Part shown: positions 9,481 through 33,506 of the stretch, one piece after another
Position numbering within the stretch: the stretch's first letter is position 1
Layout of the letters: every line of letters begins with the position of its first letter
Source: Gammaproteobacteria bacterium
GTDB lineage: Bacteria > Pseudomonadota > Gammaproteobacteria > Pseudomonadales > Azotimanducaceae
DNA length: 52,044 nucleotides
Direction of reading: 5' to 3'
Assembly: GCA_030123805.1 (NCBI GenBank)
Contig: JASJXV010000005.1
Coordinates: forward strand, 1-52,044
Notes under the pieces: generated by a model
Database searches by the model: none
What the model was told of the DNA's origin: nothing
Seen by the model: only the letters and a program-made list of their open reading frames with translations
Program-made: the position numbers and the translations under genes

Positions 9481-11223
9481 CTACATCTGTTCCACTGTCT
9501 CGATACCTAACAGTTCCAATCCTTTGCCTAGAGTATTTGCGGTAACAACACATAAAAGTAATCTACTGGCCCGTGTCTTGTCTTCCGTCTTTAGAACAGG
9601 ACAGGTTTCATAAAATGACATGAACTGACCGGATAGCTCAAAAAGATAGTTGCAGAGCAGATTGGGCAGACAATCTGTAACTACCGAGTTGATCGCTTCC
9701 GGGAACTGCACCAGCTTTATTGCAAGGGACTTTTCTGCCGGCTCGGATAAAACTATCGCGCCGGTCAGTTGAGATGGTTCTACACCGGCGCGCCTGAAAA
9801 TGCTGAAAATACGTGTGACAGCATATAGAAGATAGGGCGCTGTATTGCCTTCAAATGACAGCATCGCATCCCAATTGAAAATGTAATCGCTGGTACGGTT
9901 CTTGGATAGTTCAGCGTATTTCACTGCACCAATACCCACAACATCCGCTATCGATTTTCGCGATTGTTGGTCCAATTCGGCGTTCTTGGTACTCACCAGA
10001 TCAAATGCTCTGGATTTGGCTTCTGTGAGTACATCTGCCAATTTGACGGCACCACCAGTTCTGGTTTTAAAAGGTCTGCCATCTTCACCCATAATGGTTC
10101 CGTTGGGTAGATGTCGAAAGTCCTGAGCAGTCGAAATATAACCTGCTGCTCTGGCAACGGCAAACAGCTGTCTTAGATGAAGACTTTGTCGTGCATCGAC
10201 AAAGTAATAAGCAGAATCAGCCTTCAAGGTTTGACTACGATACTTAACTGCTGCCAGATCGGTTGCCATGTAGGGATAACCGCCATCTGATTTTCGAATA
10301 ATCGCAGGCAGAGGCGCTCCATCCTTACCCTTGAATTCATCCAGGAATACGCACTGGGCTCCATCTGACTCGGTGAGAAGACCTGCGCTGGACAGATCGC
10401 TTATCACCTCACTCAGGAATTCGTTGTAGAAACTTTCGCCATAGATGTCGTCCGGCGTCAACGAAATATTCAAAGCGTCGTAGATACTCTGACAGTGACT
10501 TACTGACTCCTTAATAAATTGATTCCACAGATTGATACATTTTGGGTCACCGCCTTGCAGCTTCACCACAAATTCCCGGGCTCTCTGTGCAAACACCGGA
10601 TCCTCTCTGAACTGCGCTGAAGCTTCCTGATAAAACAGTTCCAGATCGGAAAGTCCCCGGGACAGACCGTCGGCATCATTGGAAAGCTGGTCCATATAGG
10701 CTAACAGGCTTCCGAATTGGGCTCCCCAGTCTCCCATGTGATTGGCTCGAATAACATTGTGACCAAGAAATTCGAGTGTTCTTGCAATCGCATCGCCAAT
10801 AGCAGTACTGCGCAGATGCCCAATATGCATCTCCTTCGCAAGATTGGGGGAGGAGTAATCTATTACTACAGTCTTTGGAATGAGTGGCTCGATACCGAGT
10901 CTCTCGTCATGAAGCATCAGGGTAAGTCGGTCTGCCAGATAGTCGCTTCTCAGATGAATGTTTATAAATCCGGGACCTGCGACCTCGAGATTGTCCACCA
11001 TCTCTTCCAGATTGATAAATCTCAGCACTGTTTCGGCTAGCTCACGGGGATTCGTGCGGTTATGTTTTGCCGCACCCATGATGCCATTAGCCTGATAATC
11101 TCCAAACTCAGGTCGACCAGCCTGTTTGACAATCGCTGAAAATTCTCCTTCGAGATCAAGTTCCTGCAGCGCTTGTGATAGAGCCACAGAGATGTGTTGA
11201 TCCAGTTGTTCTCTTATATTCAT
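9481..11223 (-). CDS. argS: Arginyl-tRNA synthetase
   Basis: A class Ia synthetase that charges tRNA-Arg. Seen: the N-terminal Add1 domain (residues 1 to about 110); the HIGH motif in AKEMHIGHLRSTAIGD near residue 120; the KMSKS-equivalent GRPFKTRTGGAVKLADV, which in ArgRS is degenerate; and a helical anticodon-binding domain to the C-terminus (ETVEQM). The 580 residues fit the bacterial enzyme. The start at 11223 (MNIREQLDQH) follows the family; the open frame extends to 11292 but that part lacks homology. No strong ribosome-binding site is visible. Heads the argS-folA-NMO remnant operon. Confidence 0.95.
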   Translation of the reverse strand: MNIREQLDQHISVALSQALQELDLEGEFSAIVKQAGRPEFGDYQANGIMGAAKHNRTNPRELAETVLRFINLEEMVDNLEVAGPGFINIHLRSDYLADRLTLMLHDERLGIEPLIPKTVVIDYSSPNLAKEMHIGHLRSTAIGDAIARTLEFLGHNVIRANHMGDWGAQFGSLLAYMDQLSNDADGLSRGLSDLELFYQEASAQFREDPVFAQRAREFVVKLQGGDPKCINLWNQFIKESVSHCQSIYDALNISLTPDDIYGESFYNEFLSEVISDLSSAGLLTESDGAQCVFLDEFKGKDGAPLPAIIRKSDGGYPYMATDLAAVKYRSQTLKADSAYYFVDARQSLHLRQLFAVARAAGYISTAQDFRHLPNGTIMGEDGRPFKTRTGGAVKLADVLTEAKSRAFDLVSTKNAELDQQSRKSIADVVGIGAVKYAELSKNRTSDYIFNWDAMLSFEGNTAPYLLYAVTRIFSIFRRAGVEPSQLTGAIVLSEPAEKSLAIKLVQFPEAINSVVTDCLPNLLCNYLFELSGQFMSFYETCPVLKTEDKTRASRLLLCVVTANTLGKGLELLGIETVEQM

Positions 11224-27728: not shown

Positions 27729-28079
27729 TCAGTGACCGATCACTCGGTCAAGGATTTCCGTGCTCAACGGCAGGTCGATAGTCTCTAAACCTAGAATATT
27801 GAAGCGTTCCGGATCCAATAGATCCTGGTGGGAATCGATTAGAATTATTTTTGTTGTCAGTGACGTCCGGGCCAGTAGCTCATTCACATCATGACGAAGC
27901 TTATGGGCGATGCGCGTGTCTACGAAGATCGCATCGATATCCAATTGCTCAATATGGACCAATGCGTCTTTAATGTTATCGGTGTGCACGAGAAGACAAT
28001 CAGGCCTGAATTCACCCAATTTGCTTGCCAGCTCTTTCTGGATTTCGGGGTCACTGCTGATATCGAGTAGTGTCGACAT
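27729..28079 (-). CDS. Degenerate receiver-like protein
   Basis: A 116-residue protein with the alternating strand-helix pattern of a response-regulator receiver. Seen: an acceptor-like Asp in AIFVDTRIAHKL near 51, and the late strand IILIDSHQDLLDPERFNILG. At the place of the conserved Lys-Pro, the chain reads IDLPLSTEIL, so the Lys is replaced; the early acidic pair is not obvious either. It is therefore probably a stand-alone protein-binding or pseudo-receiver domain. Start at 28079 (MSTLLD) is chosen because family-like sequence begins there. An FNR-type box lies upstream (28137-28150), with GACAAT at the expected -10 place, so low oxygen probably induces it. Confidence 0.6.
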   Translation of the reverse strand: MSTLLDISSDPEIQKELASKLGEFRPDCLLVHTDNIKDALVHIEQLDIDAIFVDTRIAHKLRHDVNELLARTSLTTKIILIDSHQDLLDPERFNILGLETIDLPLSTEILDRVIGH

Positions 28080-28136
28080 AAAGGATCTTTTAATGAATGT
28101 GTAAATCGATTGTCCATCAAAGAGATGAAGCAATCA

Positions 28137-28150
28137 CTGATCTGGATCAA
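28137..28150 (-). promoter_or_regulatory. Predicted FNR/ANR box before the receiver-like gene
   Basis: CTGAT-CTGG-ATCAA matches the FNR consensus TTGAT-N4-ATCAA at nine of ten positions. Its centre is 64 bases before the receiver-like start. If the start of transcription is 41.5 bases downstream of the centre (class II), the -10 place holds GACAAT (28114-28109), four of six consensus. Confidence 0.6.
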
Positions 28151-28547: not shown

Positions 28548-28561
28548 TTGACTCAGATCAA
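28548..28561 (+). promoter_or_regulatory. Predicted FNR/ANR box before the candidate sRNA
   Basis: TTGAC-TCAG-ATCAA matches the FNR consensus at nine of ten positions. No protein gene follows on either strand at a regulatory distance; a structured stretch ending in a terminator follows on the plus strand. A -10 candidate is TATGAG (28579-28584) or, at the class II spacing, GAAATT (28584-28589); both are weak, as in many activated promoters. Confidence 0.6.
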
Positions 28562-28590
28562 TTCTATTCAGCGAAAATTATGAGAAATTG

Positions 28591-28721
28591 ACTACCAATT
28601 CCTGTTGTGAGGTTCGGTCTCTCACTTGAGACCAGAATCAGGGGGGCAAGAGTTATGTTGAAGACTCCAATTGAGTAATTCAGGGTGCGCTCATTGGATC
28701 TATAGCTCTAGCCCCTTTTTT
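28591..28721 (+). ncRNA. Candidate FNR-controlled small RNA (about 125-130 nt)
   Basis: A standalone transcription unit is implied by three ordered signals: an FNR box (28548-28561), structured sequence, and a terminator with six T. Two hairpins are seen. Hairpin 1 is GGTCTC-TCACTT-GAGACC (28616-28633), extended outward by TTC/GAA with one bulge. Hairpin 2 pairs GGGGC and AGAG (28643-28652) with CTCT and GCCCC (28706-28715), closed inside by TCCAAT/ATTGGA (about 28665-28670 and 28693-28698) and GAG/CTC, then TTTTTT. It contains no credible reading frame except seven codons (MLKTPIE), and the next plus-strand gene begins over 4 kb away. The start is approximate. It resembles FNR-dependent sRNAs such as FnrS or PhrS in logic, not in sequence. 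Confidence 0.55.
28643..28721 (+). terminator. Rho-independent terminator of the candidate sRNA
   Basis: Long stem GGGGC(A)AGAG with CTCT(A)GCCCC, one A-A mismatch, an internal stem, and a tract of six T at 28716-28721. The T-tract fixes the plus-strand orientation. Confidence 0.65.
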
Positions 28722-28832
28722 ATTGCCTGCGATTTGATACTCGCTACCTTTATTTTTTGTTATTGATAGCACATCAACAGATCAGGATCGGTATTCCTCT
28801 ACAAGCAATACGAGGTGATGCTATGTCGATGT

Positions 28833-29567
28833 TTACCCTGGATTTGCTGTGTCAGCATGGGCGATGCGGCAGAGTTCTGTAGTATTGATGATGCTCACTT
28901 CTTTACCATCTACCTGCAGCACATTATTTTTCTGCAACCGAGTAAATACACGACTCACGGTTTCAACTGCCAGTCCCAGGTAATTGCCGATATCGGTTCG
29001 TGCCATGGGTAGCCGAAAGGAATTGGGTGATAGCTTCCTTTGTTGGTATCTGCCAGACAGATTGAGTAAAAAAGTGCCAATTTTTTCTTCTGCGGTTTTC
29101 TTGCTCAGGAGTAGTTGTAATTGTTGATCGGAGTGAATCTCCTTGCTCAGCATCCTGTAAATGTAATTTTGCAGATTGGGGATCTTTATAGACAATTCTT
29201 CAACCTTCTGAAACGGAATTTCACATATGGCAGAAGTCTCCAGGGCTTTAGCTGAGCTTTCATGAATCTGGTCATGTATAGCGTCCAGGCCGAAGATTTC
29301 ACCCGCCATATAGAATCCGATGACTTGCTCGTCGCCGGCTGCATCAATGTTAAAGACTTTGATCGCACCGGAGCGTACGGCGTAGATTGAGTCGAATTTG
29401 TCACCCGTCTCATAGATGCGCTGATTTCGTTGCAGTGGGCGTCCTCGACCGACGATATCGTCCAGCTGGCCAATATCTTCATCACATAATGACACAGGCA
29501 AACAGAGTGCGTTCAATGCACACTCGTGGCACGTGGTCGTATATGTAGGGATGACACCTGAAGGCAT
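28833..29567 (-). CDS. fnr: FNR/ANR-family oxygen-sensing transcription regulator
   Basis: A 244-residue Crp/FNR regulator that senses oxygen with a 4Fe-4S cluster. Seen: N-terminal cluster Cys in CHECALNALC (C13, C16, C22) and the fourth Cys C115 in TSAICEIPF, exactly the E. coli FNR spacing shifted by seven; a cyclic-nucleotide-type beta roll (about 35-120); the dimer helix; and a helix-turn-helix with the DNA-reading residues E202, S205 and R206 (LAVETVSRVFTRLQ), which correspond to FNR E209, S212 and R213. It should therefore bind TTGAT-N4-ATCAA. Four such sites lie within 4.2 kb. It follows the usp and CBS genes on the same strand. Start has a weak ribosome-binding site. Confidence 0.95.
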   Translation of the reverse strand: MPSGVIPTYTTTCHECALNALCLPVSLCDEDIGQLDDIVGRGRPLQRNQRIYETGDKFDSIYAVRSGAIKVFNIDAAGDEQVIGFYMAGEIFGLDAIHDQIHESSAKALETSAICEIPFQKVEELSIKIPNLQNYIYRMLSKEIHSDQQLQLLLSKKTAEEKIGTFLLNLSGRYQQRKLSPNSFRLPMARTDIGNYLGLAVETVSRVFTRLQKNNVLQVDGKEVSIINTTELCRIAHADTANPG

Positions 29568-31194: not shown

Positions 31195-31208
31195 TTGACA
31201 CTGATCAA
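31195..31208 (-). promoter_or_regulatory. Predicted FNR/ANR box before the CBS-usp operon
   Basis: TTGAC-ACTG-ATCAA matches nine of ten consensus positions. Its centre is 60 bases before the CBS start, nearly the same as for the receiver-like gene. The class II -10 place (31172-31167, minus strand) holds TAATCT, which is weak. Confidence 0.65.
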
Positions 31209-33077: not shown

Positions 33078-33506
33078 ATGAACAATCTGGAAGAAGTGTT
33101 TGAAAACAGTTACAGAAGGGTTGTTGGTGGCAGCGTCGGCATAGATGAAAAAGGGGCAGTCTTCTTTAAGAAATTTTACAAGAATTTTCTGTCCCGTTCT
33201 GACCAGGTAGCAGAAATGTTTGCAGACACTGATATGGATCAACAGGTAAAAATGTTACAGCGCTCCATGTTCCACATGATTTCCTTCTATGTGTCGAAAC
33301 AGGAAGATAATTATTTGGCAGGCGTCGCAGAATCACATAGCGCCAGACATCACAACATATCACCAGGACTATATGATCTGTGGCTGGAATCACTCGTTCA
33401 GACTGTTACTGAGGTTGACTCAGAATATGATGATTCTGTGGGGTTGGCATGGCGGTTAGCCATGGCGCCGGGGATTGTCTATATGAAGTTCCACTATGAC
33501 AAGTAA
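33078..33506 (+). CDS. Haemoglobin-like (globin family) protein
   Basis: A 142-residue protein with the globin helix pattern. Seen: FFKKFYKNFLSRSDQVAEMF in the B-C region and HSARHHNISPGLYDLWLESL, where H91 sits at the proximal (F8) position as in single-domain bacterial globins. The distal pocket region has MLQRSMFHMISFY with a Gln near the E7 place. There is no FAD/NAD reductase domain, so it is not a flavohaemoglobin. Divergent from hemN and close to an FNR-type box, so it may bind oxygen or NO at low oxygen. Identity rests on motif pattern; function is inferred. Confidence 0.7.
   Translation: MNNLEEVFENSYRRVVGGSVGIDEKGAVFFKKFYKNFLSRSDQVAEMFADTDMDQQVKMLQRSMFHMISFYVSKQEDNYLAGVAESHSARHHNISPGLYDLWLESLVQTVTEVDSEYDDSVGLAWRLAMAPGIVYMKFHYDK

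Follow-up and report, generated by a model that had tools for sequence, protein, structure and literature searches.

The window, by which we mean the whole stretch of 52,044 nucleotides that was analysed, carries a candidate small RNA gene on its plus strand, and the convergent neighbour of this element is fnr (28833–29567, minus strand; NCBIfam NF008365, 296.8 bits against a cut-off of 228). To the left of the element lie ccoN (COX1 domain), a DsbD-type gene, a Yip1-domain gene and a minus-strand gene of 134 amino acids (27729–28133) that is divergent from the small RNA, together with ccoO, ccoP, ccoG, ccoH and ccoI, which were named by reading of the sequence without a family library. Weak relatives of the 134-amino acid gene (29–48% identity) are found near the element in three of the 12 other genomes that carry it. 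The next plus-strand gene encodes a globin and begins at 33078, 4.36 kb away, which agrees with the 4.3 kb given in the first-pass annotation. FNR-like boxes with one mismatch are present at 31195 and 32979, upstream of a CBS-domain gene and of hemN, respectively.

The element opens with an FNR box, TTGACTCAGATCAA (28548–28561, plus strand), that has 9 of the 10 consensus bases, followed by the −10-like hexamer GAAATT (28584–28589, plus strand). The 22 nt that separate them are the distance typical of class II FNR promoters and would place the box at about −41.5 of the predicted promoter. A small RNA is predicted from 28596, on the basis of the −10 position, to 28721 (plus strand), the last base of a run of six T read from the sequence (28716–28721). 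Folding of the stretch of about 127 nt predicts two main hairpins on the plus strand, one at 28611–28639 and a longer one at 28640–28718, which by folding, conservation and covariation appears to be an intrinsic terminator; its apical loop, TTCAGGGT (28679–28686, plus strand), is the proposed seed. Both the nine-of-ten box and the two hairpins with six T over about 125–130 bases had been described in the first-pass annotation and were recovered here. The 127-nt stretch 28596–28722 has a folding energy of −48.7 kcal/mol as compared with a mean of −33.5 for shuffled sequences (z −4.27), and none of 200 shuffles was as good. Open reading frames of at least 15 amino acids that overlap the predicted RNA in the window are 15–31 amino acids long. 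Taken with the fold, the T run and the covariation described below, they support the earlier proposal of a short, structured, probably non-coding and stand-alone transcript of about 127 nt with an intrinsic terminator. Between 27000 and 30500, a generic sigma-70 scan gave no promoter-like site, and a simple terminator scanner missed the window terminator, which has an interrupted stem and a loop bigger than the scanner's rules allow.

The promoter signals recur in the 13 genomes that carry the element (carriers, window included) and suggest control of the FNR type, as had been proposed. In the stretch 40–330 nt upstream of the loop, nine of the 13 have a box with no more than one mismatch, as compared with a mean of 0.34 and a maximum of 3 when dinucleotides were shuffled in 1000 rounds, and 12 have one with no more than two (shuffled mean 3.07, maximum 8). 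In G167 a two-mismatch box is found 375 nt before the loop, so that all 13 have a box with at most two mismatches upstream of the hairpin. A hexamer of the form nAnAnT is positioned exactly 22 nt past the box in 12 carriers, and G108 has CAAACT at 23 nt. Nine of the 13 carriers also have a hexamer nAnnAT on the other side of this box, again at 22 nt and facing the divergent gene; it is absent in the window, where the divergent gene has an FNR-like box of its own at 28137, and in G002. For the window, the earlier statement that the box serves no protein gene is borne out, but nine carriers have this second hexamer and four have a small membrane-like open reading frame between the box and the hairpin.

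Distribution and structure of the terminal hairpin

A plain DNA search of 58 relatives gave four matches, namely the genome of the window itself and three terminator-like scraps of 20–34 bases, and was uninformative; the search had to proceed by synteny with fnr and, after that, by a covariance model. Regions downstream of fnr orthologues contained a hairpin with the identical loop TTCAGGGT. Ten sequences, aligned with MAFFT without the use of structure, gave 20 consensus pairs and from these the covariance model R1. In 206 genomes of the family, R1 produced 15 matches. Two of them are repeat hairpins that lack the loop and were discarded, and 13 are real, spread over 7 of 37 genera; many of the carriers are draft or metagenome assemblies. 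Among 390 genomes sampled from the order (model R1) and 369 sampled from the class (model R2), the genome of the window being included in each, matches were obtained in three and five other genomes, respectively, none with the loop inside the match. Some elements may have been missed in the model scans, because just 11–21 candidates were scored per genome, and 11–12 in the order and class samples. Within the family, order and class samples scanned, the element thus appears to occur in part of one family only. The loci L044–L049 and L114–L119 are repeat or palindromic hairpins in which the loop is not inside the match, and they were excluded from the counts. Their repeats, which resemble GGGGTCAG.../...CTGACCCC and are mostly of the GGGGTC/GACCCC or GGGGAC types, mimic the stem in model searches; the letters TTCAGGGT are present elsewhere in the 3-kb loci L045, L048 and L114.

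In the alignment of the 13 sequences, which was fitted to the covariance model and so leans towards the structure of that model, 90.5% of 253 cells are standard pairs as compared with 74.4% in shuffled alignments and 28.6–49.0% when the partners were slid. The covariation measures were reached by none of 500 shuffles, and 16 of the 20 pairs have changes on both sides (54 such cells). The slide control agrees, and so does the ten-sequence alignment made without structure, in which 16 of 20 pairs likewise have changed on both sides. The eight bases of the loop, UUCAGGGU, are identical in every column in all 13 carriers; outside the loop the mean pairwise identity is 48% (range 32.5–79%). The stem evolves freely and the loop is frozen, which singles out the nucleotides that are likely to be functional and makes them open to direct testing. 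Cells with G-U number 39 versus six with A-C (29 versus six without the top pair), suggesting that the plus strand is the RNA. At least five T in eight bases are found near the 3′ end in 12 carriers, G168 being poor with three T in eight, and none of the 13 has an A run longer than three at the 5′ side of the hairpin; the T run at one end and the lack of a long A run at the other indicate that the terminator is one-directional.

The first-pass annotation had proposed a covariance search of relatives for both stems. The second is conserved and covaries in 13 genomes, but the first was not recovered in the relatives that were folded. The predicted start in G078 is 8 nt ahead of the first paired base, so that the hairpin would be nearly the whole RNA in that genome. 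In the eight folded carriers that lack the open reading frame described below, the leader, taken up to 38 nt before the loop, is between 3 nt (G078) and 105 nt (G108) long, and no common structure was seen in it.

Gene neighbourhood and a small open reading frame

The closeness to fnr that had been remarked on in the window is widespread: 10 of the 13 carriers have fnr as the convergent gene, with the loop 40–154 nt from its stop codon. The element is near a contig end in G108 and G167, and in G078 it lies beside ctaA, on a contig where fnr was not found. Among the 27 genomes of the family with an fnr match (E values up to 1e-75), the element is present in 10 and not in 16, two of which (G034 and G120) have just 373 and 411 nt available downstream of fnr; in the remaining genome, G166, the region is cut off. 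Model R2, run without filters on the fnr loci of the 16 and of G166, gave a best score of 13.6 bits (E 0.4).

An open reading frame of 36–39 amino acids, membrane-like as judged by reading, stands between the box and the hairpin in four of the 13 carriers (G073, G008, G061 and G081; a GTG start is assumed in G061), and in G008 (locus L060) it starts 177 nt before the loop. The other nine carriers, including the window, have no such frame there. When 19 genomes were searched, 10 proved to have it: the four just named; G066 and G033, where it is on a different contig from the RNA or fnr; and G181, G182, G183 and G185 (genus g25), where it adjoins fnr but the hairpin is missing. Three of these last four have an FNR box with at most two mismatches. 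It was not found in the other genomes of that search (G000, G002, G078, G106, G108, G167, G168, G169 and G058). The protein therefore recurs, often near fnr and behind an FNR box; four copies that were scanned had no Pfam or NCBIfam match above the cut-off. Because the frame is missing in many carriers, it is the hairpin rather than the open reading frame that is common to all 13.

Candidate targets

The suggestion that the RNA might tune the cbb3 genes was not supported by comparison with the relatives. The best local site in the window is at the start of ccoO (ACCCUGAAU, −15.2 kcal/mol). A ccoO match is found in eight carriers and in none of the other five, whose genomes are rated 91–98% complete, and of the eight ccoO genes just that of the window has a loop-complementary site; cbb3 was therefore rejected as a general target.

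The start region of fnr is a weak lead as a target in several relatives, not in the window. A pairing score of at least 7 between this region and the loop was obtained in six of the 10 carriers (G168, G169, G061, G106, G066 and G008) and in three (G058, G182 and G034) of the 16 fnr genes that lack the element, a comparison that was framed post hoc, after the sites had been seen, and that leaves out G166 (score 8.0), the element status of which is hidden by the contig end. In the six carriers, 8–9 bases can pair with the loop if G-U is allowed. The highest score overall, 9.5, is that of the element-less G182. The fnr start of the window scores 5.0, which is no site, and ranks 13 of 17 local genes. 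In four of the 10 carriers fnr is ranked top among the local genes scored; as about 1.8 would be expected from a rough sum of 1/n chances, this count alone is not significant.

A target like the ubiUVT of SicX was rejected as general. An adjacent pair of ubiUV-like U32 genes is present in two of the 13 carriers (G000 and G106), and no site scoring at least 7 was found near their predicted starts, that of G106 being uncertain. Single U32 genes are present in G002 and G108, and two weak sites, with a score of 7, lie far upstream of the other, single U32 genes of G002 and G106. The pattern of a loop complement before ATG was dropped, since it gave 41–220 matches per genome, apparently mostly coding among the matches listed. 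Among the genes examined, no target common to all carriers was found. Hfq was found in 11 of the 13 carriers and not in two.

Interpretation and relation to known small RNAs

The element probably encodes, with a likelihood that we put at about 0.7, a small RNA that is activated by FNR and has a conserved seed in its terminator loop. At low oxygen, FNR would bind the box and activate a class II promoter with its −10 hexamer 22 nt downstream, as the conserved sequence suggests, and RNA polymerase would make about 127 nt and stop at the long hairpin. The working part of the RNA would be this terminal hairpin, in which a fast-changing, pair-preserving stem presents the invariant loop. The loop would most likely pair with messengers whose start regions contain sequences resembling ACCCUGAA, and Hfq may assist in this. 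The fnr messenger is a plausible target in several relatives, not in the genome of the window, and such pairing may provide negative feedback, which is a weak lead.

The small open reading frame allows a different account, in which the hairpin would be the 3′ UTR and terminator of an FNR-driven messenger for the small protein and, in the window, a remnant left after loss of that protein. The four carriers with the frame between box and hairpin fit this account, as do the four genomes in which it is next to fnr although the hairpin is missing, an FNR box being present in three of these. However, the loop is unchanged in 13 of 13 although nine have no such frame there, and G066 has kept the RNA with the frame on another contig. 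If the hairpin were no more than a remnant, its loop should have been lost, so that the invariance of the loop in carriers without the frame counts against this account, which we consider very unlikely. The full invariance of the loop would also be expected if it were bound by a protein, or served as a protein sponge, instead of being a base-pairing seed, and so would the lack of a shared messenger target among the genes examined. Against this, no binding motif was recognised; sites for CsrA have a GGA core, which the loop does not contain; and the fnr starts of six carriers pair with it over 8–9 bases when G-U is allowed. A protein-binding loop is a tentative alternative, and on balance a rather unlikely one.

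The arrangement of the genes is itself open to another reading. Convergence with fnr in 10 of 13 carriers, at 40–154 nt from its stop codon to the loop, is what might be seen if the hairpin were merely a terminator that insulates fnr from FNR-driven transcription, or if it acted in cis through overlap with the 3′ end of fnr. Insulation does not need an invariant loop, however, and G078 keeps the RNA although no fnr was found on its contig. With a 5′ A run that never exceeds three in any of the 13, the hairpin is also no terminator in the direction of fnr, and we regard this reading as highly improbable.

FnrS of Escherichia coli and its relatives is a stand-alone small RNA that is activated by FNR and ends in an intrinsic terminator, and PhrS of Pseudomonas aeruginosa is a small RNA of low-oxygen or anaerobic growth. 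Rfam 15, which presumably includes families for both, gave no matches at the gathering score with the window or with the carrier loci scanned (12 of the 13, G073 excluded), in line with the earlier view that the element is unrelated in sequence to FnrS and PhrS. In lax scans of three elements, the only families returned were of microRNA, snoRNA, lncRNA and viral types, all scoring well short of their cut-offs (best mir-1890, 21.5 versus 76 bits). As judged by its sequence, the element would resemble FnrS in being FNR-activated, stand-alone and ended by an intrinsic terminator; it differs in reaching no Rfam family at threshold and in that its conserved part is the terminator loop. PaiI of P. 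aeruginosa is a small RNA of low-oxygen or anaerobic growth that, according to its abstract, depends on NarXL. The element would be akin to PhrS and PaiI as a small RNA of low-oxygen or anaerobic conditions but reaches no Rfam threshold, and NarXL dependence is a feature of PaiI.

The nearest functional parallel, compared by description and not by sequence, appears to be SicX (PA1414) of P. aeruginosa, which would share low-oxygen control, a consensus box and an intrinsic terminator with the element. According to the published account (PMC10247376), Anr induces SicX at low oxygen by way of a consensus box, and the RNA, which ends in an intrinsic terminator, has a post-transcriptional action, has ubiUVT as its target and does not need Hfq; no homologues of PA1414 are reported there in other Pseudomonas species or organisms. 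Its ubiUVT target is not general among the carriers of the element. A literature search, with subscription papers mostly outside its scope, gave nothing relevant among the matches listed on the element or an RNA downstream of fnr and no report combining fnr mRNA, negative feedback and a small RNA; the matches listed for the loop letters were all unrelated. Most likely, the element represents a new, uncatalogued family of a kind that is already known, the small RNAs controlled by FNR. The oxygen-controlled small RNAs would thereby gain a comparatively well-supported family, from bacteria known here mainly through metagenome assemblies.

A more specific form of the small RNA reading, which we regard as unlikely, is that of an fnr-adjacent, FNR-activated RNA whose sole fully constrained part is the terminator loop, with negative feedback on fnr in several genera and retargeting in the lineage of the window, for example to ccoO. 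If feedback on fnr in some genera were true, an oxygen regulator would limit its own output through RNA. As separate observations, the fnr leader of G169 contains, immediately ahead of the gene, three copies of GCACCCTG, which are complementary to the loop (L056, about 10607–10648, minus strand). In G106, the start of a universal stress protein gene is located within the loop-complementary ACCCTGAA, and an inverted repeat, CTGAATAAGTGC/GCACTTATTCAG, lies ahead of this gene (L055, 7433, minus strand).
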